A stretch of DNA of 64,000 nt from Crossaster papposus (Eukaryota > Echinodermata > Asteroidea > Velatida > Solasteridae). The stretch covers positions 1,302,001 to 1,366,000 of the forward strand of contig JBAIAA010000020.1 of the NCBI GenBank assembly GCA_037893245.1, given 5' to 3'. Numbering within the stretch: the first letter of the stretch is position 1; every line of letters starts with the position of its first letter. The notes beneath the pieces are model-generated. The model was not told the DNA's origin. It ran no database searches and saw only the letters and a program-made list of their open reading frames with translations. Both the position numbers and the translations under genes were made by a program. Below, in pieces: positions 15,743 through 47,793 of this stretch.

Positions 15743-15752
15743 AGTGCAGTGC

Positions 15753-17618: not shown

Positions 17619-17675
17619 CTCGATCCATTGTAGTAGCTACCTTACATGCTCTCTCAAATGTGAGATCTGTAGTAT

Positions 17676-24330: not shown

Positions 24331-24808
24331 CGTAAACAATAATCTTGCACCTGGGGATGGTCAATGTCAAAATTATCCTGCCGCAAACTGTTTAATATTT
24401 AAGTAATATGCACATCTGGGTAAATATCTAAATATCTTTGTTTTAATCAGTCCCATTAATAATTGTTTGAATTGTCAGGAATGGGTGGATTTGGGGGGCT
24501 GTATTTTATAGTAAATATTATTTAACTGACCTAGTTTTACAATAATGGATGCCAACAAAAAAAGCAAGAAAATTTGCCTTCGTTTTTAACCAGCGTCTTT
24601 TTAAACAGAAATAAAAAAAGGTTATATTTTGTTCTGGTATGTTTTGTATCCAGTACTGGTTCTGATTTACATGGAATGACTGCATATGTTAGACCATTTC
24701 TTAAACTCCCCATTCGATATAGACAAAGTACAGCCGCATTTTGATTGAAAATAATGCCTGGTCATATCAAAGCCATTTTGTTTGTGTACACTTTTTCACA
24801 GCGCATGT

Positions 24809-25034
24809 GAACGAGTTTGAACGAGTTTGAACGAGTTTGAACGAGTTTGAACGAGTTTGAACGAGTTTGAACGAGTTTGAACGAGTTTGAACGAGTTTGA
24901 ACGAGTTTGAACGAGTTTGAACGAGTTTGAACGAGTTTGAACGAGTTTGAACGAGTTTGAACGAGTTTGAACGAGTTTGAACGAGTTTGAACGAGTTTGA
25001 ACGAGTTTGACCGAGTTTGAACGAGTTTGACCGA
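24809..25034. repeat. 10-bp minisatellite (ACGAGTTTGA), about 22 copies
   Basis: Near-perfect head-to-tail ACGAGTTTGA units; only the last few carry CCGAGTTTGA. It lies in an intron of the host gene. Confidence 0.95.
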
Positions 25035-25059
25035 GGTTATGGCGGACTACGACTGTAGC

Positions 25060-25295
25060 AACTGTTTTAACATCACCAAGCTGACGCGCGGGATTATTTT
25101 TAACGAAACTCGATCCGAGGCAGGTTCAGGCCGATAGCACCGGGAAGCACACCCACGCATTTCCGGCCTTGCTCGCTGCTGACAGGCATTTCTGGCCTTG
25201 CTCTTGGCGTTTATGCGTCATCCGTTTCAAATCTGGGAAAAACTTTGCGTTTAAATACGGCACGAACTGGTTGAAGTCACTTGACCAAAAGTTGT
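25060..25295. mobile_element. TTAA MITE family copy, left end damaged
   Basis: Aligns with the MITE at 25810-26013 (shared AACGAAACTCGATCCGAGGC and GTTTATGCGTCATCCGTTT) and ends GCACGAACTGGTTGA, a decayed TIR. Confidence 0.6.
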
Positions 25296-25426
25296 AATCT
25301 ATTTGGTCAAAGCGTTCTGTTCGATTGACAGGCCGGATCGGTCCACCTGGAATCTGCTCAAATACCGGGTCCCGATGCACAGCTCTACAACGATCTTTTT
25401 TGGAGGGAGGGGAAGGGGAGGTTTAC

Positions 25427-25642
25427 CAGTTCCTTCACAGTAGAACCAAGGTGTGCAATCCGGGCATTCCGAAGCAACGGCCAGACCAGTGACGTTAGAG
25501 AATGTTCCACTTGGACACGGGTCGGGGTTAAACGTGGTCCCCTGGCAGAAGTACCCCTCAGGACAAATGGACTGGTCCGGGCGGGTCGAGGACTCGTTGC
25601 AGTAGAAGCGAGGCAAGCAGGGCCCGCTGACGTCAGTTTGTG
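25427..25642 (-). CDS. Host cysteine-repeat gene, exon
   Basis: The acceptor (TTTTTTTGCAATGCAG/CA) and donor (GGAACTG/GTAAAC) bound a 216-bp exon, phase 1 in and phase 1 out. It encodes CLPRFYCNESSTRPDQSICP, then EGYFCQGTTFNPDPCPSGTF and CTPWFYCEGTG: alternating YC, CP and GTF motifs of extracellular GCC2/GCC3-type repeats with an N-glycosylation site (NES). These repeats are normally found in secreted or membrane proteins. The incoming phase does not match the donor of the exon at 40620-41153, so an exon was lost or lies between them, where the virus-like block is now. Confidence 0.75.
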
Positions 25643-25809
25643 CTGCATTGCAAAAAAAGATAACGCAGAGAAGAAAAAAATGGTATGAGTACTCCAATTC
25701 AACAAAATCTAAAGAACAAGCATTTGTTTGATTTGGTTGTAAAGATTAAAGATAAAAATACAACAAACATCAAAACACAGAACTACCAAATTATTATGAA
25801 ATACCTTAG

Positions 25810-26013
25810 TTAACCAGTTCGCGCCGGGATTATTTTAACATCACCGAGCCGAGGGGCATGAGTATTTTTAACGAAACTCGATCCGAGGCAGGTTCAGGCC
25901 GGGAAGCACACCCATACATTTCCGGCCTTTCTCGTGGCGTGTTTATGCGTCATCCGTTTTGAATCTGGGGAAAACTTGGCGTTTATATTCGTCATCCGGC
26001 GCGAACTGGTTAA
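25810..26013. mobile_element. TTAA MITE, complete copy
   Basis: TTAA-CCAGTTCGCGCCGG at the left and CCGGCGCGAACTGG-TTAA at the right; TIRs of about 14 bp with TTAA on both sides, as in piggyBac-type elements. About 200 bp, no coding capacity. It lies about 240 bp outside the left edge of the virus-like block. Confidence 0.8.
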
Positions 26014-26245: not shown

Positions 26246-26275
26246 AAAAAAAAAAAAGACAGTTTGTCTTTTTTT
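26246..26275 (-). terminator. Hairpin behind the 208-residue membrane ORF
   Basis: A-run, AAAGACAGTTTGTCTTT, T-run: a 7-bp stem with A/T flanks about 90 bp past the stop of the minus-strand gene at 26364. Similar in form to the hairpin at 33481-33532. A role in RNA 3'-end formation is inference. Confidence 0.45.
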
Positions 26276-26363
26276 AAACTTTGATCTCATATCAACGCAA
26301 TTTAAAACGAGTCTAAAGGTGGCGCCGACGCGTAAGGAGGAGGTCGATCAAAATAATTTGTAT

Positions 26364-26990
26364 TTATCGCGAAGCTGTAAGTTTTTCGATAAGACCTTTT
26401 TTTTCTTTAGACACCAACTCTTCCACGCGTCTTTTTATCTCGGATTCCATACCGCTCGAATCCTTTTTTTCCGACAGCTTGCTGCCGGACCTGATAGCCT
26501 CTTTCATATCGTTAAATTGCCTCAATTCCTTTAATATCAAAGCGTACTCTTCGTGGGATATATCGCCGTCTGTAATAGCTTGAGAAATAAGATCTCTTAC
26601 GCTGTTGAGTTTAGCCTCGGCCAAGACTCTAATCTCGTCGTGTTTTTTAACTTTACGTCTAAATCGTTTGCTAAAATATTTTAATACGAACGCGGCACAA
26701 CCAAAACTCAAGGCTACTCCCTCTAACGCAAAACCAACGGGTGACTTGATGGCACCGCTTATAGCCGTGATTCCCAAACCCCCACAAATCACACCACCCA
26801 TCTCGGCTAGCGTTTCCGTAGTAGACAATGTCGTAATGAACTTGCCATATTTTTTACACAACGCGCTTCGCTGTTCTCGTTGCGTCAATATATCTTTTTG
26901 AACTTTTTTGATCTTTTGCAATCGAAACACCCTCGTACTATCATCATCTTCGATGGTACTTTTTAGATCGGGGTAAATACTAGTCGTCAT
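26364..26990 (-). CDS. Virus-like membrane protein, 208 residues, unknown function
   Basis: An intact frame. Residues 1-50 are charged (SIYPDLKSTIEDDDSTRVF, then RLQKIKKVQKDI). Residues about 65-105 are hydrophobic and glycine-rich (GGVICGGLGITAISGAI and GFALEGVALSFGCAAFVL), enough for one or two membrane passes. The C-terminal half is a charged helix with KKHDEIRVLAEAKLNSVRDL and a DGDISHEEYALILKEL segment that resembles an EF-hand-like or simple helical pair. I recognise the family as an associate of Polinton-type PolB genes, without a known role; a virion membrane or internal protein is a guess. It is one of the few uninterrupted genes in the block. The start is supported by the upstream AACTAAAA (minus strand TTTTAGTT) motif and AAAATG. 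Confidence 0.6.
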   Translation of the reverse strand: MTTSIYPDLKSTIEDDDSTRVFRLQKIKKVQKDILTQREQRSALCKKYGKFITTLSTTETLAEMGGVICGGLGITAISGAIKSPVGFALEGVALSFGCAAFVLKYFSKRFRRKVKKHDEIRVLAEAKLNSVRDLISQAITDGDISHEEYALILKELRQFNDMKEAIRSGSKLSEKKDSSGMESEIKRRVEELVSKEKKGLIEKLTASR

Positions 26991-27011
26991 TTTATTAAGA
27001 CAAAACTAAAA
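26988..27011 (-). promoter_or_regulatory. TTTTAGTT...AAAATG start motif
   Basis: The minus strand reads TTTTAGTT, a short AT-rich spacer, then TAAAATG at the start codon of the 208-residue gene. The same arrangement precedes three other genes in the block. Confidence 0.45.
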
Positions 27012-27034
27012 TATTTCTACTTTTAAAAGAGTAA

Positions 27035-27704
27035 CTAAAATATTTCTACGTTAAAAATTATCTCTTTATCTCTATTATTGATTATCTGGCCAAGACCGTT
27101 TTTCAACGAAAACGTGAGGCTTTTTATTTTGCCAGCTACCAACTCTTTCGAACACTTGTTATACATGTAGTTGATATAAATTGGATCTTGAGGATTGTTT
27201 GAACGAGCAGCATCACAGTGTACGGGTATACTCTCCAACAGGTTAGTTTGTAAAAAGACCGCGCTGTAAAGATTTAGGCTAAATTTTTCATAATAATTAC
27301 TACCACCATTGAGCCAACCCCTGGGTAAACCTAAAAGTTTAGATAGATTACTCGATAGTTTTATTTTTTTGGTCGGGAATGGATATATAAAACAGTTCAT
27401 CGGATAAGGACTCTATAGATATATCGTGAAAATCTTTTATACGATATTCAAAAGAATGAAGATTCCACCTATCCGGAGGAATATCAATTTTTTCACGATC
27501 GGCAATTTGAAGAGGCGTCAGATCATCGATATCACCCGTAAAACTCTCCCAAATTATCGACGCTTTTTTTTCGAGGTTATAAAAACCTAAGTCTAACACA
27601 AAGTTGTTTAACTTCATGCGACGGTCACCCCCGACGTTATCCATAGGTCGCGATAGTTCAAAGGTCTTCTCGTTATCTGTCATGACGAACGTATGAGACT
27701 GCAT
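27035..27704 (-). pseudogene. Virus-like ORF of about 220 codons, frameshifted
   Basis: Two overlapping minus-strand frames make one gene. The first (from 27704) starts MQSHTFVMTDNEKTFELSRP and runs to about 27375; the second continues with LSSNLSKLLGLPRGWLNGGS and ends at 27035. The change of frame falls in the run AGTTTTATTTTTTTGG near 27357-27371, a homopolymer site. The C-terminal part contains SNNPQDPIYINYMYNK and a beta-rich-looking end (IKSLTFSLKNGLGQ, EIIFNVEIF). Beta-strand content and small size would suit a virion or fibre-like structural protein, but I do not recognise the family and give no function. A truncated tandem paralog lies directly upstream (27745-27950). Confidence 0.5.
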
Positions 27705-27723
27705 TTTACAAAAGTAACTAAAA
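27702..27723 (-). promoter_or_regulatory. TTTTAGTT...AAAATG start motif
   Basis: The minus strand reads TTTTAGTT-ACTTTTGT-AAAATG at the start codon of the 27704 gene. Confidence 0.45.
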
Positions 27724-27744
27724 TATTTGTACGTTTAAAATTAT

Positions 27745-27950
27745 ATCTTTACCTCTATTATCGATTATCTCACCAAGACTGTTTTTTTAAGAAAACGTGA
27801 GGCTGTTTATTTTATCGGCTACTAACTCTTTCGAAGAATTGTCGTATTTGACGTAAATAGGATCTTGGGGATTGTTTGAACGAGCTGCATCGCCCGATAA
27901 AGGTATATTCTCCAAAAGATTGGTTCGTTTTCCATTAACAAAATTTGAAT
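27745..27950 (-). pseudogene. Truncated tandem paralog of the 27035-27704 ORF
   Basis: The minus strand spells SNNPQDPIYVKY, SKELVADKINSLTFS and upstream NLLENIPLSGDAAR, close to the C-terminal half of the neighbouring gene. The N-terminal half is missing; the copy stops at 27957 where a 140-bp palindrome begins. Spacing to the next gene and the AACTAAAATATTT word after its end are the same as behind the neighbour, which supports a tandem duplication. Confidence 0.6.
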
Positions 27951-27957
27951 GCGTAGA

Positions 27958-28097
27958 CAATGGCTTTTCGAGCGACCACAACGACTGTTTTGTGGTGCAA
28001 GAGTGCAGGCCTGCATCGCTGCACTGTACAGTGCAGCGATGCAGGCCGGAATTCCTGCACCACAAAACAGTTGCTGTAGTCGCTCGAAAAGCCATTG
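27958..28097. repeat. 140-bp near-perfect palindrome
   Basis: Arms of about 70 bp meet without a spacer: the left begins CAATGGCTTTTCGAGCGAC, the right ends GTCGCTCGAAAAGCCATTG, and the centre is GCACTGTACAGTGC. About eight mismatches. No target duplication seen. It may be a hairpin MITE; it marks the break in the viral paralog. Confidence 0.8.
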
Positions 28098-28899
28098 TTG
28101 CGTCCCCCGTCTTCGCATAGTGTGCTCTTTATGTGAGTCGGGTGCCGTCTGGACGTCCATAGAGTTTATACATGAGAAATTTTCCTGAATCATTTGAAAA
28201 CAGTGTTTTGAAAAGCTGGTCGAAATTGCTCGGATTTTCAACCCCAAATAATTGTGAGTACCATGGAAGCCCTAACAGTTCTTCTTTAACATGTATAGAA
28301 GCCAGTATGCGCTTTCCAAGATATTTTGTCAAGTATTTGGCATGTTTTGGGCAACTTTTGTGTTCCCAATTCATTTTTGTATTGGCAATATGCTAATAAA
28401 CTGTTGGGGCGTTAGAACGACAGACAAAATCCAAAATTAAAAAAGGAGTGAAAACGCCCCAATTATTGGGTCTACATGTGACCCTGCTATGAGATGCACG
28501 AATAAGCCACTTTGTAATACATGTGTAATAAATGGACAACTGGGGGCATATAAAAAAAGCAAGAATGTTGGATTAATAGTGAAAATATACATGGACATGT
28601 TGTGGCATCTAACGTTTGTTGAGAATAAATAAAAATGCCAAAGTATGATCTGTCTCTTGTATACTCTTTATTTCACACGTCAAAATGGGAAACTTGTTGA
28701 GTTGAAACTGCAAAGCGAATGTCATGCAATAGAAAGAATATTCCTATGGGGTGAAGAATAAAATATTTTCCATTTCCAACAGTTTGTTCACCTCATAGTA
28801 ATATTTATTATATTGCACTCCACATAAAACAAACTTAAAACTAGAAATGTGTTTGTGGACAAACACAGAGCTGTTTCGCATACTGTCCAAAATGACTTT
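28098..28899. other. Unassigned DNA inserted within the viral block
   Basis: No viral gene is recognisable. A minus-strand open frame at 28129-28374 (81 codons, containing HAKYLTKYLGKRILASIHVK) has no domain that I recognise. The stretch is flanked by the palindrome and the degenerate tandem array. Confidence 0.4.
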
Positions 28900-29646
28900 T
28901 AATATTTGGGTGGTGGTCTAAGTGTGTGCCAAGTCTAAAGTCGATCGAATTTAGTGCCAAAGATATATTGGTTGAAAAAAACGTGTACAAATCCTATGGG
29001 GAAAATTAAACCTTTAATGTGACGTCACATGACATCCGATGATATCATCACAATGTCATCTTAATTTTCGTTTATAACACATCCTGGAATACTTGTATAC
29101 CAAGTTTGACCCTAATTGGACTTGTACTTCCAGAGATAGAGGGTCTTAAAAACTACACCTTTAATGTGACGTCACATGACCCACGATGATGTCATCATGA
29201 CGTCACCCTGATGTTCGTCTATAACACATCCTGGAATACTTGCATACCAAGTTTGACCCCAATCGGGCCTGTACTTCCAGAGATAGAGAGGCCTCAAAAC
29301 TGCACCTTTAATGTGACGTCACATGACCCACGATAACGTCATCATGACGATGTTTCCCTTGGCCCTCCTGGGGATGGTGGTCGAGGTGTGTGCCAAGTCT
29401 CAAGTCGATCAAATTTACGAAAGTGTCAAAATCAATAGTCTGAAGAAAAACGTGTACAAACCTTATGGGAAAAAATTTGAACCTTTAACGTCACGTCAGG
29501 TGACCTTGAAAGACGCAATCGTGCCGAATTTCTTTCAGGGACATCTGGGAGTGGGGTTCTAAGTGTATACCAAGTTTCAAGTCGGTCGGATTCACCAAAA
29601 TGTCAAAGTCAATAGTCTGAAGAAAAACGTGTACAAAACCTATGGG
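28900..29646. repeat. Degenerate tandem array of about 150-175 bp units
   Basis: The words GTGCCAAGTCTMAAGTCGAT or TACCAAGTTTGACCC recur at about 28928, 29099, 29243, 29391 and 29567, and TTTAATGTGACGTCACATGAC at about 29011, 29161 and 29306. Units contain the palindrome TGACGTCA. Open frames through it are chance. Confidence 0.65.
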
Positions 29647-30341
29647 GAAAATATTTTAGTAATTTGGTTTGCATATTATTAAAGCATATATCGTTGAGCA
29701 TTATTTGTGAAAATAGGGAAGATATTACATTAATATTTTTGGAGATATTCCTATTTTTAGCGAGTATGTGTAAAAATGGCTTTTCCACGGGAGCTGTCAA
29801 TGCATCAACATGTTTGAATATGATATGACACAATAATGTAATGACGCGATAGTCCTTTGACAAATGTTTTTGCGAGAGCTTCTTTTATTTACACTAAAAT
29901 GGATAAATAATACTTTTTAATAGATAGATGAATTTATTCATGATTTCAATCTCACAAACATTTTTCTTACTTGGTTAGACTGCCAAAGAATTTGCGCAGG
30001 AACAGACTAACTTATGCAATGACGATATTATGTGCACAAAATCATGACAATTGTCTATTGATGTTCCAGATACATGAAATTATATCATTTGTCAAACTAA
30101 CTGAAATGAACAAAACCAGAAGCCATTGACAGCTCCCGTGGAAAAGCCATTTTTACACATACTCGCTATAAATAGGAATATCTCCAAAAATATTAATGTA
30201 ATATCTTCCCTATTTTCACCAATAATGCTCCAAACGATATATGCTTTAATAATATGCAAACAAAATTACAAAAATATTTTATCATCTAGGAGAAAATGGC
30301 CTCCAAAAGTGGGTATAGTTTTTTTTGGACCACCCTGTACT
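29647..30341. mobile_element. MITE with long TIRs, left end truncated
   Basis: 29647-29815 and 30122-30287 are inverted copies (shared GCATATTATTAAAGC, GGAGATATTCCTATTTT and GGGAGCTGTCAATG). The right end continues to TTTTTTTTGGACCACCCTGTA (end at 30341), the reverse of a TACAGGGTGGTCC terminus; the matching left terminus is absent. It ends exactly where recognisable ATPase coding begins. Confidence 0.65.
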
Positions 30342-30852
30342 TGGTGATCATATGTCCGACTCTGTCAAACAACAAAACGTACCACGAGAGGCCTTGGTTT
30401 TTTAACGACACCTATGTTTACGCGTGCGACCTCGACGCCAAAAATATGAACATGAACGAAGCCATAGACCTTTATCGAACGAAATTTAAAAATTTGCACA
30501 CTTTGTTTTTAATCGACGACTGCAGCGCTTATCAAGCGATGAAATCGGCCAAAAGGGCCACAAGGGAGGATGCTGCATGTTATCTAAATTAGCCTTTAGC
30601 GGTAGACACGATAACCACAGCTGTTGGTTATTGACTCAAAAATATAACAGCGTTTTAAAAGATTATCGCGAACAGACTCAATGGGTCGCTATTTTTTATT
30701 GCAAAGACAAAAAAAGTTTTGATAATTGCCTCGACGAAAATGATGTGGTGCCGGATAATAAAAGGCAAGACATAAAACAATATCTCAAAGACACTCCCTA
30801 TAGTAAATTGATTTTATATACGAATCCTCAAACTAAATGGAATTTGTTGTAA
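30342..30852 (+). pseudogene. FtsK/HerA-type packaging ATPase, C-terminal part
   Basis: In the first frame VIICPTLSNNKTYHERPW and LFLIDDCSAYQAMK are visible; the hydrophobic run followed by two aspartates is the Walker B motif. A frame change at 30577-30592 leads to LAFSGRHDNHSCWLLTQKYN, with the conserved glutamine at the end of the strand after Walker B, then LKDYREQTQWVAIF. This is the A32-like genome-packaging ATPase found in Polintons and related viruses, which would move DNA into the particle. The N-terminal half with the Walker A (P-loop) motif is missing: the frame joins MITE sequence at 30341. The gene ends at 30850-30852. It cannot be functional as seen. Confidence 0.75.
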
Positions 30853-31070
30853 CCTAGTTGTGATTTGTTGAGGTTTTGTTAGATAGCTAGTTGTAATTTG
30901 TTGAACAGCTAGTTGAGATTTGCTGTATAGCTAGTTGTAAAGTACTTGCATAGCTAGTTGTAATTTGTTGGACAGCTAGTTGTAATTTGTTGAACAGCTA
31001 GTTTTAATTTGTTGGGTAGCTTGTTGTAAGTTGTTAAACAGCTAGTTGTGATTTGTTGCAGTTAGTTTAT
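30853..31070. repeat. Degenerate 22-bp tandem repeat, about nine copies
   Basis: Units of ACAGCTAGTTGTAATTTGTTG with variants fill the gap between the ATPase stop and the next viral gene. Confidence 0.8.
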
Positions 31071-31115
31071 CTCGCGTTTATTTAAATGTTATTTTTGCTG
31101 ATCGATCTTATAAAA

Positions 31116-31661
31116 ATGGAGCCTTTAAAAACTTTAGACAACGATCCGCAAACGGAAAAACATAAAAATAGACTGTTGGGTGTAGTATCAGCCGGTGATT
31201 CTAAAAAGTATTTGGGTAAAGAATTTAGCCAAGGAGATGTAGAAAACCTAGACGCGAACAAACAAGAAAAAATGTACAACCATTACGAGGCAAGGTTGGG
31301 TAAAGAAAATATTACTAGTTTGGGTAACTGCGTGCTAGGGATTTACTCGAGAGTTTTAGGCGCGAGTCTACCTATGATCAAACCCATGGGTGTCAGTCTA
31401 CGAGTAGACTCGGAAGACGCGCTCACCAAAGATCTAGAGGAAGATCCCGTTATATCTAGCTCGATAGCTAGTTTACTTTGCGAAGTTTATTACAACTACG
31501 GAATGTTGTTGTCGCCGTTAGTAGGTTTATTGATAACGTCTAAACATTTAGTTATCAACGAAAAGAATTCTCTTGACAATATAATAAAAGATGAGTCAAC
31601 AAGAGAGCCCAAGTTCGTCGATGTTAAAGAAGACTCCAAAGGTACAGACGGTGACGACTAA
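31116..31661 (+). CDS. Virus-like membrane protein, about 181 residues, unknown function
   Basis: An intact frame from the ATG in ATAAAAATGG at 31116 (an earlier in-frame ATG at 31086 would add ten residues; I prefer 31116 because of the AAAAATG context seen at other starts). It contains LLGVVSAGDSKKYLGKEFSQ near the N-terminus, an ENLDANKQEKMYNHYEARLG helix, then SLGNCVLGIYSRVLGASLPM, and a hydrophobic segment YYNYGMLLSPLVGLLITSKH near residue 145. The tail is acidic. I know the family as a companion of Polinton-type PolB and ATPase genes in invertebrate genomes; it has no function known to me. The 3' end overlaps the start of the next gene by 71 bp, a compact viral arrangement. Confidence 0.6.
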   Translation: MEPLKTLDNDPQTEKHKNRLLGVVSAGDSKKYLGKEFSQGDVENLDANKQEKMYNHYEARLGKENITSLGNCVLGIYSRVLGASLPMIKPMGVSLRVDSEDALTKDLEEDPVISSSIASLLCEVYYNYGMLLSPLVGLLITSKHLVINEKNSLDNIIKDESTREPKFVDVKEDSKGTDGDD

Positions 31662-31821
31662 AACAAAAAATCCAGGTAGAGTAAAACAAGGCAAGGCATT
31701 AGCGGAACACAACAAAAAGAGAAAAGAACAAATTGCCAAGATGCAAAATATAGACGTGAAGAGTACTCTTTCTTATTCGTACGCAACAATTGGGTCAATA
31801 ACGGGTTGGCGCTTGTTTTAG
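31591..31821 (+). CDS. Small basic virus-like protein, C-terminus probably frameshifted
   Basis: 76 codons from ATG 31591, overlapping the previous gene in another frame. The N-terminal half is strongly basic (KKTPKVQTVTTKTKNPGRVK then QGKALAEHNKKRKEQIAKMQ). The end reads LSYSYATIGSITGWRLF and stops, while an adjacent frame stays hydrophobic (NNGLALVLGGLYI), so a small indel near 31790 probably removed a C-terminal membrane segment. A basic protein with a membrane anchor could tie DNA to a membrane or shell, but this is a guess; I do not know the function of the family. DNA from 31822 to 32003 has no clear gene and includes A-rich runs. Confidence 0.5.
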   Translation: MSQQESPSSSMLKKTPKVQTVTTKTKNPGRVKQGKALAEHNKKRKEQIAKMQNIDVKSTLSYSYATIGSITGWRLF

Positions 31822-32003
31822 GAGGACTCTATATATGAAGCCAAAGAGTCTCACCACCAAAACCACAACCACTAGCACAGCCTCCCCGAAAGAGCCCAAG
31901 GGGGACTCCGTCCCAAATCCCTTCTTCTCCGCCCCAACCATCTTCAGATTTTGTAGAAATGGAATAAAAAAAATTAAAAAAAAAAAAATTGTGGCAATTA
32001 TAA

Positions 32004-32237
32004 TTGGATACTAATAGCATCGCCAACAATCTCTATCACGCCGCCGTGATCTCTATGTTAAGCGTGGGATTTACCATGTTTAGTAAAAAACTGTTGAAGA
32101 TCAAACCGGCCGATCTCGACAAGTTGAGCGTAGAAGATGTAGCTAAACTAACGGCTGCGATAAGCGCATCGATGTACGTAAAAACATGGCTGGTCAATCA
32201 AAATATACTCCCACCAAATATATTAAACTCGACATAA
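32004..32237 (+). CDS. Small virus-like membrane protein, 77 residues, start codon TTG
   Basis: The frame begins at TTG (32004) where the alignment with related proteins that I know would start, DTNSIANNLYHAAVISMLSV, so an ATG has probably mutated by one base. Residues about 8-30 form one membrane segment (AAVISMLSVGFTMF). A second helix follows (LTAAISASMYVKTWLVN) and the end is QNILPPNILNST. The family accompanies PolB and ATPase genes of Polinton-like elements; its role is unknown to me. It lies 22 bp upstream of the next gene on the same strand. Confidence 0.55.
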   Translation: MDTNSIANNLYHAAVISMLSVGFTMFSKKLLKIKPADLDKLSVEDVAKLTAAISASMYVKTWLVNQNILPPNILNST

Positions 32238-32240
32238 AAC

Positions 32241-32262
32241 TTTAGTTCGTTATAATAAAATG
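32241..32262 (+). promoter_or_regulatory. TTTAGTT...AAAATG start motif
   Basis: TTTAGTT-CGTTATAAT-AAAATG at the start codon of the 32260 gene; the plus-strand equivalent of the motif at 26988 and 27702. Confidence 0.45.
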
Positions 32263-33477
32263 GCCGAAGGTGGAGATTTTGAACCGGTAGACGAATTTAC
32301 CCCGGCATAAGACAACGATCTAGACTGGGACAATAACGATTACTCCATCGACAACGAAACGGCGTTAGATCCAGCCTATGCTCAAGCTCGTGATGGTGTT
32401 TTAGAACAAGGGAGACGTTTTATTGATAATCAAAGAGTCGAAAGTTTCTACGAACGTCAAGGACAAAGACAATATGATATAATTTTGCAATGGGAAAGAT
32501 TCGTAGTAAAAGATAACACGTTATATTTTAAAACCGATGACGAAGAAGTAAGATTATCGCAAAAAAACAAACCAGATACATTTTTAGCATTAAGTTCTAT
32601 CGAAAAAAATGCTAGGGACGGTATAGATTTTATTAGAAACCAATTAGGTTTTAAAGATTATAAACGAAACCCACTTAGTATAGAACAACAACAACAATTA
32701 CAACAGATTGAACCGGAGTCTATCCCGATGCAAGATCTTCCGAAAATGGCCCTTGATTTAAGCGAAATTCTCGAAACTTTAGACCAAGAACAAGAACAGG
32801 AAACCAGTTTTATACTAATCGCGGGTTTAGACAGAACTCTTCAAACGATGAGAGGCAACTTATAACTAAATTTAGCGCGTCTCAGAATACTCGATGATGA
32901 GATAGCCCAGACCGAAGGAGCATTAGCCGAATCAGTGAGCGACGGTTCCACGGCAGAAATGAAAGAAAAATTAGAAGACTTAAAAATCGAAAGATCGGCT
33001 AGATTAGAAGCCGACGAAAAAAACCTCAGAAGTCAGATAAACAGAATCAAAGAAACGATTACGAGGATTTTAGATAGCGACACGACCTTGAGAGAAAAAA
33101 TTAGAACGTTGTTTAGAGAACAAGGCGTGACCATCGCGAGCATTTTGTCGGCGTTTGGTTCGGCTATCGGTTTGATAGTAAAGAGCGTTTTGTCTGTCAG
33201 TGCGTCCGCGCCAACGCCCGCGCCTACTCCGATACCACCATCTAACGCGAATAACGTAAAAGAATGGATACAGTCGCAACTAAAACACTTTTCAAACGCG
33301 CTCGCTAAACTCGGCTCAAAATTACTCGACGCCTTGCCCGTAATTTTAGGCGGTATAGCGAGTTGGATATTTAACGTATTGAGTAAAACCGTCGGATGGT
33401 TGGGCGAACACGTGTGGGCCTTTATAGTGGGAGTCGGAACTTTAATTTTTGTTTATTTACAAAAGCGCCTCGGTTAA
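32260..33477 (+). pseudogene. Virus-like protein of 405 codons with coiled coil and membrane anchors; two nonsense codons
   Basis: One frame runs from ATG 32260 to the stop at 33475-33477, broken only by TAA at 32308-32310 and TAA at 32863-32865. Residues about 1-60 are acidic. Residues 60-200 hold the most distinctive part (RFIDNQRVESFYERQGQRQY, then EDIRLS-like charged strands). Residues about 200-290 form a coiled coil (EMKEKLEDLKIERSARLEAD, LREKIRTLFREQGVTIASIL). Two hydrophobic segments follow (SAFGSAIGLIVKSVLSVSA and ALPVILGGIASWIFN) with a Pro-rich linker (PTPAPTPIPP), and a last one ends the protein (AFIVGVGTLIFVYL). I know the C-terminal half as a recurrent Polinton-neighbour family. 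Helix-hairpin-membrane architecture would suit a membrane-active virion protein; that is inference only. Confidence 0.6.
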
Positions 33478-33480
33478 AAG

Positions 33481-33532
33481 TAAAAAAAAAAAGGCTTCTA
33501 ACAAAATATTTTGTTAGAAGGCTTTTTTTTTT
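33481..33532. terminator. Bidirectional hairpin between convergent viral genes
   Basis: A-run, GGCTTCTAACAAAAT, ATTTTGTTAGAAGGC, T-run: a 15-bp stem with one mismatch and no loop bases beyond the centre. It begins 4 bp after the stop of the plus-strand gene (33477) and overlaps the end of the minus-strand gene (33531), so it can serve as an RNA hairpin for both transcripts. Function is inference. Confidence 0.65.
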
Positions 33533-34982
33533 ACCGCGCAGACTCGTACATCAGGTATCCTATACCCGCTATGGCTAAAGTACCGACAATCAGCAAAGTT
33601 TTTTCATACTCGTGAGGATCTCTAGTTAAAACTTTTTCTTCGGGAAAAGAAGGCTCGACCGTGGGCGTTGGTGGTGTTACCAGAGCCGGGCTTTTGGGCG
33701 TTGGCGCTGGTGGGTCAACGATCGCGGACGTTGGCGTTAGTGGTGGTGGGTCAACGACCGAGGACGTTGGCGTTGGTGGTGGTGGTGGTGTTGTTGGGTC
33801 ACCCGCGGGCGTTGGCGTTGGTGGTATTTTTGAGTTTATCTTCGAGTTTAATCCCAACGGTAAGTTAGCGGTCGCAATCTGTATATTGTTGTTATATCCT
33901 TTGTGGGTTCCGACCCTCAATTGCATGTTCGAAGGCACGAGATATAATCCTTTAGCCAGCACAAAGTTTAACGAACTCCTGGCGTATTGCAGCGAATCTT
34001 GAAATTGGGTTATAGATTCTTCCAGATCGGCTGGAGACGATATCAAGTCTTAGACGATATTAACAAACTGGGCTTGGGCGTCGAGCCCCATGCCCGGAGT
34101 CAAAATACTAGTTTTTGTTTGCGCCCGAGCCCCCAGCAGAGCGTAAACATACGCCCTGACAGATTCGTTTATTTGTTGTATCCCTACGTCGGTAAAGTGA
34201 GACTCTGCGGGTATCCATTTTTGCCACCCGAGCGTCAATACCGCTCTACTTTGCGATATATAACTTATTATATAAGTACTGTAATAACCAGATCCTTTAG
34301 GAGGATCTTCGTTGCCAAACCCCATTAGACATCCCCCCGCGTATTTACCGTAACTAATATCCAAGGGTGCGGTATCGTAATCCCCCATAGGGTGACCCCA
34401 AGCATAAGCCTGACCCAATCCGCCGGAATAATGATCGACCGTCTGTATCCAAGACAAGTTGTGATCTACGCCGTAAAATCTGCAAGTGTCTATATAACCT
34501 TTACGATCTATATTGTTGTTATAAGGGTCATATATGTCGTTGCCCGGTATGGGACATTGCATAAACTCTAATATTTTTCTAACCGTAAAATAAACATGAA
34601 ATCTATATATGGCCCTCGTGAGACGATCCGTCGAATAAAGTAGATCTATCCCTATGCCGCAACCGGCGGTACTGCACCACATTGCAAAATTGAATTGATT
34701 TTGATAAAACACCAACGGAACAGATTTCCATCTGTTTATTAGCTCATCCGTTGTAACGGGGGGTAACCTATAATGGGTGAATATATCCGCAAAAATAACC
34801 ATAAAAGAACCGCGGTCGACCGCGTTCACTACAATCTCTAGACTCTTGAAATCTAATTCCAGCCTGTTAGCTTGTTCTTGTGCTTGTTCTTGTGATTGTT
34901 CTTTCATTCTCGATATATTTTTATCTTGTTCGATCAGTCTCAATATATTTTCTACGACCGTTTTGTTTATGGCGTTAATCAT
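33531..34982 (-). pseudogene. Large virus-like ORF, 484 codons, one nonsense codon; candidate virion protein
   Basis: A single frame from ATG 34982 to 33531, broken only by TAA at 34050-34052; the reading frame is the same before and after. Residues 1-45 are a charged, glutamine-rich helix (MKEQSQEQAQEQANRLELDF). The central part contains LPPVTTDELINRWKSVPLVF, YQNQFNFAMWCSTAGCGIGI and IYRFHVYFTVRKILEFM. After the nonsense codon come YARSSLNFVLAKGLYLVPSN and VGTHKGYNNNIQIATANLPL, then a proline/threonine stalk of about 75 residues and a C-terminal membrane segment (TLLIVGTLAIAGIGYLMY). This is the longest non-polymerase ORF and belongs to a family that I have seen next to Polinton-type PolB genes. 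Globular head, stalk and anchor suggest a surface protein of the particle, but the fold is unknown to me and no capsid motif is visible. Confidence 0.6.
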
Positions 34983-35092
34983 TTTTAGTTGTCTTTATTA
35001 TAAAAGACTTTAATTAAAATGTCTTTATGTGTATTAGAAAATATGTCTCATTATTTTTTAGATTTAGGAATCCACTTAGAAAAATTTATAAG

Positions 35093-35190
35093 CTAGGTAT
35101 CTCGCAACAAACTCGAGTTCTTGTTCTATTTGGTTATCGCTGGTGGTGTAAAAGTCTGAGAGTTGGGGTTTATGCTGTAAGTTAACGATG
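35093..35190 (-). pseudogene. Possible inverted remnant of the neighbouring viral gene's C-terminus
   Basis: The minus strand spells PQLSDFYTTSDNQIEQELEF then VARYLAYKFF and stops. The layout (P-x-LSDF/LADL, spacer, hydrophobic end in YKF) is like the C-terminus of the plus-strand gene at 35227-35629 (EPTLADLIKRP...FLVYKFV). It may be a diverged inverted duplicate. The intervening 34990-35226 holds no other gene. Confidence 0.35.
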
Positions 35191-35226
35191 AAATCTAAGT
35201 GTATTTTTTTTTTCTACTTTTAAAAT

Positions 35227-35629
35227 ATGGCTAGCATCGCTATGATGGTCGGAGGCGCTATAGTTAACGCTTTAGCTTTCACGGGATCAAACTTTTATTT
35301 TTTAGCGTTAAACAAGACGGAGAGCGCAAGAGACACGACTTAGCTTTAGAAAAACTGACGACGGCGAAAAACAATTGGGAAAAATCTCAGACAAAGCATC
35401 TCGATAGGTTAAACGATCGACTCAAAAAACAAGCGAAGGCTCAAAAGACTTTTAAAAGTATAGACGAGGCTCTCAGAGAATACAACTCGGTTACTCACGA
35501 AGATCTACGAGTACCAATCTACCAGCAGCACGAGCCCACTCTCGCCGATTTGATCAAAAGACCGGCGAGTTGGCGTTTGTTTTGGGAGGAACGTCGTTGG
35601 TAGGTTTTTTAGTTTATAAGTTTGTATAA
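35227..35629 (+). pseudogene. Virus-like membrane/coiled-coil protein, two frameshifts
   Basis: ATG at 35227 opens MASIAMMVGGAIVNALAFTG, a hydrophobic N-terminal segment, and the frame closes at a TAG near 35341. A neighbouring frame takes over with ERKRHDLALEKLTTAKNNWE and a charged helix to about 35560 (SIDEALREYNSVTHEDLRVP). A second change near 35565-35570 leads to GELAFVLGGTSLVGFLVYKF and a TAA at 35627-35629. So the gene had an N-terminal membrane segment, a long basic helix and a C-terminal membrane segment, about 133 residues. I recognise the family as one of the most constant neighbours of Polinton-like PolB in invertebrates; function unknown to me. Confidence 0.6.
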
Positions 35630-35651
35630 GTTGTTTAGTTTTTATAAGTTG

Positions 35652-35668
35652 TTTAGTTAAATACAATG
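35652..35668 (+). promoter_or_regulatory. TTTAGTT...AATG start motif
   Basis: TTTAGTT-AAATAC-AATG at the start codon of the integrase gene, with another GTTTAGTT about 18 bp further upstream. Confidence 0.4.
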
Positions 35669-36378
35669 GAAACAAAGTTTAAAAAAGTGTATTATAGCCC
35701 CGTCGGTTATTGGTGAGGGCGCGGTTGTAAAATTAGCTAAAAAAACGGGCGCGTCCAAAGAAGAAACCAGAAACTGGTTAAAAAAAAAGTGTTGTGGCAA
35801 ATTTATTTACCGCCTCCAACGTTTATTCCTCGTCCTACGAGTTTGAACAAGTCCATGGGTATTCCCAACAAAATGCATCGGATAGACTTGTTATTTTTAC
35901 CCTTCAATAAAGTCGGTAAAAAAGAATATAAGTACGCGATGAGTACGCCAAAGAAACCCTTAATCCGACGGAGAGATCGCGATTCTGGGTTAAAAGATTA
36001 CCCGACGTAATTAAGGCGTTAAACGACGAAACCACCAGATCGATAACGACGGAAGACTACGAGCCACTCACTTCCAGGCGGGCGATGCAAGAAACGCAAG
36101 TTCGTCAAATCAGTTCTTCCGCGGATGAGGTAGAAAAAGAGTTGATAAAAAAGGGCGATCTTTTTAGATATCTTTACGCGCCCAGTGAGTTAAAGGGAGT
36201 AGAGCGCAGGCGAGCGACCGACCCTATCTGGAGTCTCGAGGTTTTTGATTTAGATCGCGCGATCAAAGACCCCAACCAACCCACTCTTTACTATCTCAAA
36301 AAAGGTCCCAATCGAAGTTTCGTTAGTCAAGAGCTTCAAGTCGTTCCACCGGACACCGAGTTACCTCCATGTTTATAG
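35666..36378 (+). pseudogene. Polinton-type integrase (rve), catalytic core deleted
   Basis: The frame opens at ATG 35666 with VYYSPVGYW and meets TGA at once; the next segments (KLAKKTGASKEETRNWLK, then LWQIYLPPPTFIPRPTSL) lie in different frames, with a change in the A-run near 35779-35787. IDLLFLPFNK holds the first catalytic aspartate and YKYA follows near 35935. Directly after this the sequence jumps to the C-terminal domain (FWVKRLPDVIKALND, GDLFRYLYAPSELKG, RRRATDPIWSLEVFD, PTLYYLKKGPNRSFV). The stretch that should hold the second aspartate and the glutamate, roughly 120-150 residues in the family, is missing. The enzyme would insert element DNA into the host genome; this copy cannot. 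The 3' end overlaps the end of the polymerase gene on the other strand. Confidence 0.75.
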
Positions 36379-39300
36379 TGAACATACGCTAGAGTAGACG
36401 TTCCATCCTGTAGTATATATAGCTTTGTGTCCAGAGGACTCAACGACAGTTTGTTTTGAGTTATGGTGTGTAACGCGTGATTTTTAGATCTGATGTACGT
36501 CATCTTATCGCTTTGAGAATCTTTTTTTTTAGACAGTCGAGATAACGCTCGTGACTAAATTATTTGTCGGTGACTGCTTTGGTTACTCCCTTGGCTTTTT
36601 TAAGCTCAAAGCCGTCCGTCATTAAAATTGAGTACATCTTTGGCCTTAAGCAAACGCATTGGCTGACTGGTTTTCCCACCAAATTTGTCTTTAAATTTAC
36701 CTATTACCTTTTTGTTGACGCGGTCGTACAAAGGGTGATCGGTGGGATAGTTTGACAAGTCGTACGAGTCGGAGTCTTTTTTTTATATCTTCGTAAACGT
36801 CGTCCGTCTCAACGCTCAAGAGTAGACTGTCTGTGTCGGTAAACCCTATTCGGTCTCCATAGGTTTCTTTGAGGCGGTTGTAATAAAAGTCGTACATGAG
36901 AGTTTTTGAGAGGTCTAAAATACTCACCCCCGCATAAATAGGTTTGTTTAATAACGTCTTGGTCTTGTACATTTCGATAAACGCTAGATTGCAATCGGTA
37001 AAAATCGTCGTATGTTTATAGCTCGGTTTACGCGACAACGCTTGATATTTAGAAACTTGGTCGCTTCTAAGTAAAAACGCCTCTGTTCTATTTCCCCCTT
37101 TTTCCATCGTCTTTCCAAAAACGCTGTTGTTCATGAGCTTAAAAAAGTCCTTTTCAAAGTCAGACGTTGCGTGAGTTCCGAGTTGGGTGTTTTTGTCGAT
37201 GTAAGATTTCATCCAAGGCGCTTGCTTAAATTGTAATACGCCAACAACCCCAGTTGAAACTCGGACAACCACTCTTTGGGTACTTTGATATTTCCGGGGG
37301 CCAGCAGATAATCATTGTGCCAATCGTGCAAAGCGTTGGGATAATCCAAGTCTACCTCTAAGAGACACCCTACGTCGGCCGTTTCTGAGATTGACATAAT
37401 GCGTTCCGTCGTGAAGTCTTTGGGTTTTGCCGATTTAAGATCGGCGTAAGGTAAATATTGACTCATGGCCCAACCATACAAATTGATGGCGTCGAGATAC
37501 ATGATGTAAGTCGATGGTTTGTCTGGATCGTAGTCGGAAAGATATTTATTGCTTGCTTTATAGTGCCTAGCACCCACGCTTGATAGTCCTCTTTTTGCTT
37601 TTTCCAAAAACAAGTGTTTGTCCACATCGGTCAACAACTCGAGCTCGACGTCCGAGTGTTTTAACAATGCGTCCCACGACAACCCAGGAGAGGTGTAATA
37701 GTTAGCGGGGTCTAACTTGTAGTTCTTTTTACACACTTTTCAAAAAATTTCAAACACACCTGCCAAAAGTAACGCGTCGGTGGAGACGTACAAGTTGTGA
37801 TATTCACCCAAGTTTTTGACGTTAAATTCGACCCACACTTGTTGAGCCCTAGAATAATCGTCTTGCGAGATATTCGAGTCTTTGAGGCTGCTGCAAAACT
37901 CGTCGATGGTAGGTCGATCTCTTCAAACTTATCGAACGAATCCATATACTCATACGGGTAAATACCTTTTTGTAAGAGCAGGTCGACATTTTGGTCTTTA
38001 TAGCGTTCTTTGAGTAGAGTAAACGCCTCTTTTGGACACGCGTTGACTAGTTTATCCAACGACGTCGACATAAGTTTATCCAACGACGTCGACATAAATT
38101 TAAACGAGTCTATAAATCTCATATTACCGATCGAAAACAAAATGTATTTTTCCGAGTTGCTGGGAATAAAATCGATATTTTCTTTAGTCTCGTACAAACC
38201 TTGCATGATTAAATGAGCGTCGTAATTTTGTAAATTGTGAAAGATGACGGGTATCTGAGTTTTATCCGATACCACCTGCAGTTTTTGATTGCAATAAGCG
38301 TGCGCGGCTCCCCTGTATCTACCCGTGATGTGACAGTGATCTCTCACCTTTCTAAATTTGTTGATACGCTTTTTACACTCGATACACTTTGACTCTTTAA
38401 ATCCCTTTTTGTTTACGTAACAACATTCTTTCTTTTCTTCGTTAGTCTTCGGTTCTTTCGGAAGCGGGCACTGACAGTTTGAGGATTAATTAGGATATAT
38501 TGACTTTTCGCAAATCCAACACGTACTCGTGTTTTGGTGATCGATGTTGTCTCGCGATGTAAAGTCTATGAGCTTGGGGTTTTTAAAAACTTGATTAAAC
38601 TCGTATCTTAAACGCAACGTCGAGTCTATGAATTTAGTCATGGCGTCTTTTCCTCTATAGGTCTCTTGAAATTCAAGTTTACTGTCGTACCTTAAAGCAA
38701 TCAACGAATAACCGCAAGATTTGTGAACTTGAGTCTCCTGCGTGTTTGCCTCTTGAGGCTTTAATTTTTTTAATATTGATTCAAAGTCGGCATAAATGAC
38801 AAAAGGCGCGTCTTGCGTAAACTTTTGATTTTTAAATTTTAATATCGGAGGGTCATCGTTAAAACCTTTTGGAAAGACGACCTTAGATGGTGGCATATCT
38901 ATTCCCTCGCAATCTTGTGTATGCCTGTCCAACTTGTCTCATGAGTTGTAGTGCGCCAAACATCTAAAACAGATGTATGTTTTATGCTTGTGTCTCGTTT
39001 GGTTCAAAAATATTCTAGATATATGTTTTATCCAACAATAGTGATTCGTGTCGTCCGGGGTCGTTGGCGTTTTTAGATAAATATAACAGTCGTACTTTAG
39101 CCTCTTCGTATTGAACACATTTATACTCAGATTGTTTTGTCTCTCTATCTTTTCTATTTGATTGATTGGAGTAGGAAAGTCTACGTCTTTAAAATTTAAT
39201 CCATCGTTTTTATCGTAAACTGACGGCCTGTCTTCGTGGATTTTAAAATCGGGTTTGTCTTTTACTCGTTGTTTTATTTCGTCGGTATACTTGCCGAGAG

Positions 39301-39846
39301 CGGCTCTCAAACACCACCGTAAACATTCGTTGTGTTTGTTTCTGACGTTAATAAAAGCTTTTGTTTACTAAAAAAGTCGGTAATTTTATATAAGAACTGC
39401 CGCTCATAGGTCTATAGCGGTCGATGTTGATATAAAACGCGAGTATCCTAACGAGTTTCCAACCCGATCCTTGACTGGTATTTTTTGCGTGTAGTTCTTT
39501 TATTTTAAAGATTTGATCTTTGACATTTTCTTTTATCTGACTCTCGTTAACTAGCTTTTTACTAAAAAAGGTAAAAGCGCTGGTTTTTACTAAGCCGTCT
39601 TGATTTTCTTTATCGTATTCCGCTTTAAATCCTAACTGAACTTTTATGGCCGATAGATTTCTCAGCTCTGACACAACAATTTTGTCAATCTGCCGCACGT
39701 GCGTATTAAAGAATTGCTCTACGTCGTCGGCTTTAACTCCAAGTTTCTATAACTGTTACTAAAAGCTCTATGTACTTGAAAATCTGCCTCTTTAAAGATA
39801 TCGGGGTTTTTATACGATTTAATCGCTAAAATTAAATCCTTTCGTA
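36336..39846 (-). pseudogene. Protein-primed family B DNA polymerase (Polinton type), many frameshifts
   Basis: Successive minus-strand frames: 39698-39348, 39310-38939, 38932-38486, 38347-37712, 37736-37209, 37272-36697 and a last part to a stop at 36336-36338. Exonuclease motif I is FVIYADFESILKKL, motif II is VIFHNLQNYDAHLIMQ. MRDHCHITGRYRGAAHAYCN precedes it, with zinc-ribbon-like cysteine pairs around 38340-38520. Polymerase motif A is YLDAINLYGWAMSQYL, motif B is FKLMNNSVFGKTMEKG and motif C is GFTDTDSLLLS, all with their catalytic residues. A recent-looking 24-bp duplication is visible at 38052-38096 (ACGACGTCGACATAA repeated). Upstream coding continues to about 39846 without a clear start. 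The enzyme would copy the element genome using a terminal protein as primer. Six or more frame changes and stops make this copy dead. Confidence 0.85.
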
Positions 39847-39929
39847 AAAATCAACCTCGTTTACCAGTTGACATAAATTGTAGCTCTTGGTCATCTATTA
39901 TTTGTTTGAGCTCATCCAGTTTCTTGCGT

Positions 39930-40173: not shown

Positions 40174-40370
40174 TTAACCAGTTCGCGCAGGATTATTCTG
40201 ACGTTGACAGGACCCGGCATATGGGTGAAACCCTGATATTTCCAGCCTCGCTCACTGCGATCTGGTCGCTGACAGATATTTACAGCCTTCCTTGTGTTGC
40301 GTTTATCCGTGAATCGTTTTGAATTCCGGAAAAACTGTACGTATATACACCTCATTCGACGTGAACTGGT
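40174..40370. mobile_element. TTAA MITE family copy
   Basis: TTAACCAGTTCGCGC at the left and GACGTGAACTGGT at the right; the right TTAA is replaced by SINE sequence. Interior matches the other copies. Confidence 0.7.
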
Positions 40371-40528: not shown

Positions 40529-40619
40529 CTGATTGTGACTTGACATGAGACCATGAGTTCCGAGTTGACTTTGCAACGAATTTGATGAATGCTCAAAGAG
40601 TTTGCATGTTTAACCCCAC

Positions 40620-41153
40620 CTGGTTGTCAGGTTGTTGAATGTTCCGTACGGGCAGGCAAACTCCTCTGCGTACGTTGTCCCATTCAGGCAGTAATACCCA
40701 CTTGGGCAGACGTAGGATCGGTACCACACCACGGGCCCGACGGTGGCATTACAGTAATGCCCAGCAGGGCAGGTCTTGCAGTCCCACTGTCCCACTGTGT
40801 CCTGGTAGGTGCCGGATGGGCAGGGCTCCGGATTGCCATATCCCTCTCCACAGAAGTGACCCTGGGGGCAGGTGTGGTCGGCTGGGGTGGCCGTAATCTG
40901 ACCAACAGGGCAGTAGTAGCCCCTCTGGCAGAAACACGTAGAGGTGGGAAGACCCTCACGATGGCAGTACATCCCCTTGGTGCAGATCTGGCAGCTGGTG
41001 TTAGCGCTTTGCTCGGTGGCGTCGAGGTAGTAGCTAATCGGGCAAGGGGCGGGCTCCCAGGAACACACAGGGCAGTAGTGGCCCCGGGGGCAGACGTTGC
41101 CCGTCATGTTGTCGGTGGGGTTGCTGACAGATGCCTCCAAGGTGCAGTAAAAA
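40620..41153 (-). CDS. Host cysteine-repeat gene, long exon
   Basis: A 534-bp exon with acceptor TTAATTTAG/T (pyrimidine-poor) and donor ACAACCAG/GTGGGG. It encodes FYCTLEASVSNPTDNMTG, CPRGHYCPVCSWEPAPCP, CQICTKGMYCHREGLPTS, CPQGHFCGEGYGNPEPCP, CKTCPAGHYCNATVGPVV and CPSGYYCLNGTTYAEEFACP: six or seven CPxGxYC modules with several N-glycosylation sites. The whole exon is open and codon use is GC-rich, unlike the AT-rich viral block next to it. The phases at both ends (2 in, 2 out) do not match the neighbouring recognised exons (1 out at 42519, 1 in at 25642), so further exons are missing or unrecognised on both sides. Confidence 0.85.
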
Positions 41154-41649
41154 CTAAATTAAGATTAATACAGAAAACAAGTGATCCTCGGACCGTGAGT
41201 GCTGTGAGTGTCACCTGTTGCAATGATGACCTCCAATTATCCCACAACGGTCACTGCATCCAAATGTTATCAAAAGTCATGAAAGCATGTAGAAGTTATA
41301 CATTTGATTCAGAGACATAACCGGAAACTTTAACATACATACAAACAATGACCTCTAATGACCTATAATGACCCCTACATGGCCTTTGACCCCAGAAACT
41401 CATACATGTACATACGGTCATGGTATACGGATGTACAGACATACAGAATTTAGGACTGGTTAAGTGTCCCTAAAACTTTGTTTATGTGACCCAAAAAGAG
41501 AAAATTATCTTAAAAATAACACTATCTGATGAAAGTAAGGAAAAGTATGTGTAGAATGGTTTCTTGCTCCCTGTGCTATCGATTCTGATGGAGGCGAGAA
41601 CCAGTCAACCTTCTGATAACCTAATTATTGTGAATCCAAAACGAATTAA
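41154..41649. other. Intronic DNA, nothing recognised
   Basis: Intron of the host gene. Contains short ACATAC/CATACA words near 41320-41440; no element or gene seen. Confidence 0.5.
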
Positions 41650-42143: not shown

Positions 42144-42386
42144 TTAACCAGTTCACGCCGGATGACGTATATAAACGCAAAAAATTTCCCCAAATTCAAA
42201 ACTGATGACGCATAAACACGCTAAGTTCAAGTTCGGAAATGTATGTCAGCAGCAAGCAAGGCCGGAAATGCGTGGGTGTGCTTCCCGGCACTATCAGCCT
42301 GAACCCGCTTCGGATCGAGTTTCGTTAAAAATAATCCCACCCGTGGGCTCGGCGATGTTAAAATAATCCCAGCGCGAACTGGTTAA
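42144..42386. mobile_element. TTAA MITE, complete copy
   Basis: TTAA-CCAGTTCACGCCGG ... AGCGCGAACTGG-TTAA, 243 bp, in the opposite orientation relative to 25810-26013. Terminal repeats and TTAA duplication are intact. Confidence 0.8.
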
Positions 42387-42518
42387 ATACTCATATCAGG
42401 AGAAGAAGTTCCAAGCCCAGGCTGGGCTCTAATCCACAACTTGAAAAATTACAGCAAATCATGAATTCAATGTTACAGACCATGGCACTTTTACAAACAT
42501 AAATGTTTTTCCACTTAC

Positions 42519-44274: not shown

Positions 44275-44621
44275 ACCGTTTTAATTTGTTTGACTTGACT
44301 TCGAATATAAAGGATTTGTGTGCACCTTGATCTTGTTTGGTTTTGGATTGAGAATACCTATTGTTTTCTATTGTTCAGTGATTGATGCTAATAGTCTCTT
44401 TCAGATATATATTATTTACTTTGCGATTTGCTGTTGTTTTGATTGATTTGTTGACCAGTGTTTTCCTCAAAGGTACATGTACATTATTTATCCTGCAAAT
44501 TATTTTTTGATACTTGCCAAGAGAGCCAACATTTGTGCAATTCCTTTTTTTTGTGGCCATTTTCCCCGTTCCGTGCATTTTTTCGGTTGTTGCTTAATTG
44601 CTCAAACTTCACTTGTCACAA

Positions 44622-46124: not shown

Positions 46125-46129
46125 GCCCC

Positions 46130-47295: not shown

Positions 47296-47793
47296 TGTAA
47301 CGTTACTCTGTAGCGGGCCAAGCAGAATGAGGCGTGGGGTCATAAATAACCAAAGAAAATGACGGCAGACAAGGCAGACTTCGGGGGCGCCTCCCAGATT
47401 TAGTTTTAATACACAAACAAATCGAATTAATATTTACAAAAGTAAGGAGCACATTAATACAAGTAGGTGGATTATACAATTAAAGTAACACTTACAAACT
47501 ATAAGACCGGTGCAGGCACGAGGCTGGAGGAAAACACACAACAGAAAATACCCAAACGCAAAAGTGGCTACAAAAATAACGGAATGACCCACGCCCCAAT
47601 TGCGCGAACCAGTCTTATAGTCTGCAAAGTGCACTCGACCAAATGGAATCCAAATAACTAATAAATGTAAAGCTGCATTACAAGTGGCAAACATATGTAA
47701 GAATGAAAGGAATTTAAGGAACGAATAAAAAGTGAATGAAATGGTGGAGTGTAAAGCATGTAGCGCAGGTGGTGAACATACGTATTTGTTACA
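47296..47793. mobile_element. LTR-like insert (candidate solo LTR) within RT
   Basis: Starts TGTAACGTTACTC and ends GTATTTGTTACA, 498 bp, non-coding. The ends have LTR form (TG...CA with TGTAAC/GTTACA), but there is no target duplication: RT coding lies on the left and displaced gag on the right. Confidence 0.5.

Follow-up and report, generated by a model that had tools for sequence, protein, structure and literature searches.

Results

Remains of a Polinton-type element in a probable host intron

The sequence analysed here is a 64-kb stretch of the Crossaster papposus genome (C20:1302001-1366000, hereafter the window), taken from an assembly of 1841 contigs totalling 1.02 Gb. It contains the broken genes of a dead Polinton-type element, together with readings of a host gene on either side (Table 1). 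A preliminary description of the window had proposed a decayed Polinton-like element within a host intron, and the first half of this proposal was confirmed by the motifs of a family-B DNA polymerase (PolB), by an A32-like ATPase and by the broken reading frames. The element likely occupies a host intron, because Cys-rich readings flank it on the minus strand and the splice signals, judged by eye, are compatible with such an arrangement. The reading upstream of the element carries an Ephrin_rec_like match, and the one at about 25.4-25.6 kb gave no match in a Pfam search. The host-intron placement is thus probable. A search of the window for terminal repeats returned none that were better than those of shuffled sequences.

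Table 1. Positions and condition of the element, its genes and the flanking host readings in the window.
Feature	Position	Strand	Condition and remarks
Cys-rich host reading, probably next exon	about 25400..25640	-	read by eye; downstream of element; limits approximate
Polinton-type element, dead	about 26.3-39.7 kb	both	broken genes on both strands
p208	26364..26990	-	open frame, 208 aa, one membrane-like segment
Penton candidate 1 (about 235 aa in relatives)	27035..27704	-	broken over two frames; holds ORF 27035
Penton candidate 2, remnant of tandem paralogue	27721..27966	-	detected by tblastn with relatives' proteins
Stretch without match to relatives	27967..30337		lies where relatives have rest of penton candidate 2, 422-aa capsid candidate and ATPase start
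A32-like packaging ATPase	30338..30846	+	broken over two frames, without start
p221	31098..31658	+	largely open; start shorter than in compared relative
p119	31566..31964	+	broken
p450	32260..33477	+	one gene, internal stops; coiled-coil and membrane-like segments
p467	33531..34982	-	one gene, internal stop; ORF 33531 is the Pro-rich C-terminal part
rve-type integrase	35227..36375	+	broken; most of catalytic core without match
Family-B DNA polymerase with endonuclease-VII-like domain	36330..39674	-	nearly full length, five frame-shifted segments, stops
Host reading with Ephrin_rec_like match	40610..41158	-	Pfam E=3.4e-6; upstream of element on host strand

The PolB gene that had been recognised from its motifs was borne out, with the motifs on the minus strand at about 36.3-39.7 kb. 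The window protein matched Endonuclease_7 above the cut-off (E=4.1e-6) and DNA_pol_B_2 below it (E=0.001). In the related copy L035, PolB is an open frame of 1167 aa containing motif patterns that we take to be those of the exonuclease and the polymerase, and DNA_pol_B_2 was matched at that place with E=1.3e-13. When the L035 PolB protein was run through hmmscan, only Endonuclease_7 and weak matches were returned.

The A32-like packaging ATPase named in the preliminary description was also verified. The evidence is weak in the window, where the gene corresponds to residues 34-201 of a relative's protein and matches Pox_A32 below the cut-off (E=0.0086), and stronger in relatives, where the same family is matched above it (E=3e-6 and 2.6e-12). 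The rve integrase described at the same time is present as a broken remnant: its pieces in the window have no Pfam match, and it was identified through a relative, whose integrase matches rve above the cut-off (E=6.6e-10) and whose residues 96-186, the greater part of the core, are unmatched in the window.

Decay differs from gene to gene (Table 1). The window p208 protein is 83.7-87.0% identical to the proteins of relatives, and p221 is 83% identical to that of a relative over 193 aa. About eight small ORFs, several of them encoding membrane proteins, had been reported from the window. Conserved genes are indeed present, but they are fewer than the ORFs, several of which are pieces of one gene: ORFs 27035 and 27348 represent one gene in two frames, ORFs 32311-32865 and 32866-33477 together form p450, and ORFs 34994-34050 and 34049-33531 form p467, 33531 continuing 34050 in the same frame. 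By simple hydropathy, only ORFs 26364 and 32866 among those of the window scored as membrane-like, whereas ORF 33531, the C-terminal part of p467, fell below the threshold.

Related copies in the same genome share a gene order

A search of the same genome for intact copies recovered related copies with long open frames, and these share their gene order. The 314-aa p467 piece of the window had 126 scored matches in the genome, among which 65 showed 64-71% identity; of the 65, 64 belong to open frames of 422-742 aa and 57 show no stop within the match. We compared the left-side stretches of five copies and the right-side stretch of a sixth. In all of them the order is the same, namely p208, two genes of about 235 aa, a gene of 422 aa, the ATPase, p221, p119, p450, p467, the integrase and PolB, so that a complete member has 11 genes. 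Several relatives are incomplete: both of the approximately 235-aa ORFs are shortened in L029 and one of them in L032, L033 (one of the five left-side stretches) shows no separate ORF of 422 aa, and the integrase of L035 is divided into two ORFs. Among twelve stretches from the genome, one belonged to the window's lineage, two had the gene set and nine were without it; these nine may be other element types or may have been wrongly placed.

All four copies whose ends were measured (14,400, 14,455, 14,637 and 13,928 bp) have AGTAGTAGGGA at both ends and are flanked by 5-bp target duplications (TGAGC, GCAAG, CGTCA and CAGAA); at one of the four, the sixth base also agrees. Longer terminal repeats could be aligned only between L029 and L035; the remaining four left ends gave no such alignment.

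The broken p467 frame of the window was not unique to it. Of the 126 matches, 17, counting the window, show the same frame at 99-100% protein identity, and the stretch L034 closely duplicates the fossil in the window. Since the other 16 copies share the broken frame and the DNA around them is 99.2-99.9% identical to that of the window, the fossil was copied after its breakage.

The window copy lacks the capsid candidate of its relatives

The homology of the relatives' DNA to the window ends at position 27959 and restarts at 30338 in four of the five relatives and at 30592 in the fifth. The unmatched stretch between the two blocks (Table 1) contains repeats and an inverted-repeat insertion. In four of the five left-side stretches of the relatives, the 422-aa gene sits between the penton candidates and the ATPase, and its protein had no match anywhere in the window at E<=0.01. 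The capsid gene most likely looks absent from the window because the window copy lost it, while related copies keep the candidate. The preliminary description had recognised no capsid, penton or protease and had left a choice between gene loss and unrecognised structural proteins; the former is supported by the presence of the 422-aa gene in relatives from the same genome. As to the genes themselves, the window is indeed without a match to the capsid candidate, but two penton candidates can be assigned in it by position.

It is very unlikely that the window's sub-lineage never had the 422-aa gene and that its relatives acquired it. The p467 piece of the window is only 64-71% identical to the 65 long-frame relatives, and none of the sister copies read through this region was less decayed, both of which would suit a separate history. 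However, penton candidate 2 and the start of the ATPase gene, once necessarily part of the window copy, are also cut into by the break, and the 422-aa gene is present in more distant lineages as well. We consider that the window element is probably a dead copy of a Polinton-type endogenous virus lineage, roughly 14.4 kb when complete, from which the capsid gene has been lost at this locus.

The 422-aa protein is the most likely major capsid protein

The 422-aa protein is encoded at no fewer than 99 places in the genome; all 99 that were scored showed 95-100% identity, and 96 were without a stop. Among the nine genes compared between relatives (3-5 copies per gene), the 422-aa gene had the lowest dN/dS (0.08), the values for the other genes being 0.17 for p221, 0.21 for the ATPase, 0.23 for p467, 0.24 for p208, 0.42 for p119, 0.45 and 0.53 for the two penton candidates and 0.70 for p450, the fastest of the nine.

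Homologues of the 422-aa protein, at 45-47% identity and with many of the same neighbours, occur in two further lineages. In all three lineages the sole Pfam match of the protein was PF16903 Capsid_N, with E values of 0.12, 0.0061 and 0.0016 (12.4, 16.6 and 18.5 bits), none of which reaches the 24-bit curated cut-off. When the whole genome was searched in six frames with PF16903, two candidates emerged, and the better one (E=0.51) is located in the third lineage's 422-aa homologue. Chance would hardly account for one of two candidates in a gigabase falling within this gene. Copies from the other lineages did not appear in the six-frame list. The protein had no match in the PDB and no family in PHROGs or NCBIfam, where a single weak match to an enzyme was obtained (NCBIfam, E=0.064), and by crude strand propensities it could not be told apart from a protein with a helical model. 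The 422-aa protein is most likely the major capsid protein of the lineage, with a putative double-jelly-roll fold.

It appears highly improbable that the lineage is a capsid-less transposon that has given up virions, with a 422-aa protein of non-capsid function. Polintons from which capsid, protease and ATPase genes are jointly missing have been reported (PMC4028283), and no protease was recognised among the ORFs scanned in the lineage studied here, but the packaging ATPase has been retained under constraint (dN/dS 0.21) and none of the nine genes is more constrained than the 422-aa gene.

ORFs suspected of encoding shell proteins belong to larger genes

The ORFs at 27035, 32260 and 33531 had previously been singled out as possible unrecognised shell proteins. 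As separate capsid genes, those at 32260 and 33531 were rejected, since they are pieces of the larger conserved proteins p450 and p467. ORF 33531 (172 aa) matches residues 312-471 of the homologue P0004 at 46%, and nine homologues were found for the p467 piece; the C-terminal part of p450 has 69 homologues, among them one from the mollusc Elysia marginata. The alignment and the model of p467 homologues suggest that the C-terminal part of p467 may carry a membrane anchor. Models of the p467 and p450 homologues, of low confidence (mean pLDDT 60 and 61, respectively), are mainly helical and so speak against jelly-roll shells; the suspicion was not supported for these two. The ORF at 27035 did not stand as a gene of its own either, being half of an approximately 235-aa gene, but as half of a penton candidate it may still be structural. 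The two tandem proteins of about 235 aa are penton candidates by their neighbourhood and position; they have no Pfam match in the window lineage and no match in the PDB.

A shell built from unrecognised proteins among these three, with another task for the 422-aa protein, is unlikely. The genes concerned are conserved in relatives and match no known family above the Pfam cut-off, p467 also has a low dN/dS (0.23), and the double-jelly-roll fold of the 422-aa protein is itself putative. By contrast, the low-confidence helical models of the p450 and p467 homologues, the rapid evolution of p450 (dN/dS 0.70) and the suitability of the approximately 235-aa genes for a vertex protein all argue against such a shell, and the 422-aa gene is both the most constrained and the one with Capsid_N matches. 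The 422-aa protein is accordingly preferred here as the capsid candidate.

Discussion

Polintons are described as elements of 15-20 kb that encode PolB, an integrase, an ATPase, a protease and jelly-roll capsid proteins (PMC4028283), and intact vertebrate Mavericks as having 6-bp duplications, with AGT as the most frequent end motif (PMC8097293). The lineage studied here shares with Polintons/Mavericks the PolB, rve integrase and packaging ATPase genes, a capsid candidate, inverted terminal ends starting with AGT and target duplications. It differs from Polintons in its length of 13.9-14.6 kb as against 15-20 kb (PMC4028283), and from intact vertebrate Mavericks in having a target duplication of 5 bp instead of 6 bp (PMC8097293); two tandem penton candidates, five further conserved genes and the lack of a recognised protease also set it apart from Polintons. 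A protease is reported in 74% of Polintons (PMC4028283), and among the relatives' ORFs scanned no adenain-like protease was detected (no Peptidase_C5 match at E<=1). In the preliminary description, relatives with a standard capsid, penton and protease would have marked an ordinary Polinton; the capsid candidate and the penton candidates are present in the relatives, which nevertheless go only part of the way, since no protease was recognised among their scanned ORFs. Because of the 5-bp duplications and the unrecognised protease, and even though the core is shared, we file the lineage as a Polinton-like variant and not as a plain member.

With adintoviruses and meldviruses the lineage shares the animal-associated set of PolB and rve integrase. 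Duplicate pentons are described in some of these viruses (PMC11071296), comparable to the two tandem penton candidates found here. Adintoviruses, compared here by their description only, have as defining features an OTU-like domain in PolB and a BLAST-recognisable Hexon (PMC11071296). A similar resolution of an apparent capsid absence is provided by the Maverick-Polintons of Trichomonas vaginalis, which were thought to be without a capsid gene until structure prediction found one (PMC10120064); these are protist elements and are likewise compared by description only. The capsid genes of Cnidaria do not group with the main Maverick-Polinton cluster (PMC10120064), so that divergent lineages in animals come as no surprise. 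None of the titles and opening lines of abstracts surveyed describes the present gene set.

Beyond the enzyme families, we infer the roles of the proteins, and also the double-jelly-roll fold. By analogy with Polintons, PolB would copy the linear genome from its ends, and the ATPase would package it into a shell made of the 422-aa protein, the vertices of which would be occupied by the approximately 235-aa proteins. The p450, p467 and p208 proteins may act at a membrane, and the integrase would insert new copies, leaving 5-bp duplications. The window copy probably lost the region of the capsid candidate together with the larger part of the integrase core, gained frameshifts and stops, and was then copied onward with its broken frames. 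More tentatively, the lineage could represent a distinct family of animal Polinton-type viruses that has no recognisable maturation protease, carries two vertex proteins in tandem, leaves 5-bp duplications and forms virions that either contain a membrane bearing p450, p467 and p208 or bud through one.

These results illustrate how one decayed copy may give a misleading picture of the gene set. They supply five conserved genes for Polinton-type elements, p208, p221, p119, p450 and p467, and they make an apparently capsid-less element testable, in that one gene family could decide whether an abundant lineage makes virions.

Sequences within and around the decayed element

In the part of the decayed Polinton-type element that has no match to its less decayed relatives in the Crossaster papposus genome, and that stands where these carry a 422-aa capsid candidate, we found an inverted-repeat insertion and a short open reading frame. 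The 81-aa product of the latter was matched neither by the relatives' proteins used for comparison nor by a Pfam profile. The repeated sequence that flanks the element on both sides probably belongs to a host mobile repeat family.

Features of the window within and outside the element
Feature	Position	Strand	Remarks
Inverted-repeat insertion	29648-30280		Arms 96-98% complementary; within the stretch replacing the capsid-candidate region
81-aa ORF	28129-28374	-	Inside the replaced stretch
Tandem array, 10-base unit	24748-25087		Near the element's left side
Repeated sequence	25807-26013, 40174-40354, 42180-42389		Ends TTAACCAGTTCGCG
Long open frame(s)	14089-17636	-	Ty3/Gypsy-type Gag-Pol-like, by eye
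Long open frame(s)	44598-51404	+	Ty3/Gypsy-type Gag-Pol-like, by eye

Multiplication in the genome

Sixteen polymerase-profile matches in the assembly, including C1667:39679-40995, had the profile span 12-407 and a 1248-aa polymerase frame in common, and their scores were equal or nearly equal. They represent a recently multiplied sister lineage, of which one copy (L042) was read.

Copies of the fossil itself were 99-100% identical to the window's piece of p467, a conserved element gene, on contigs C186, C812, C879 and C1188, and 93-94% identical on C156 and C641. Spacings between copies on the same contig, determined by hand, were ~225-273 kb on C186, C812, C879, C1188 and C156, and 157-170 kb on C641. 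With assembly artefacts as the alternative, the arrangement looks as if very large host segments containing the fossil had been amplified in tandem after its decay.
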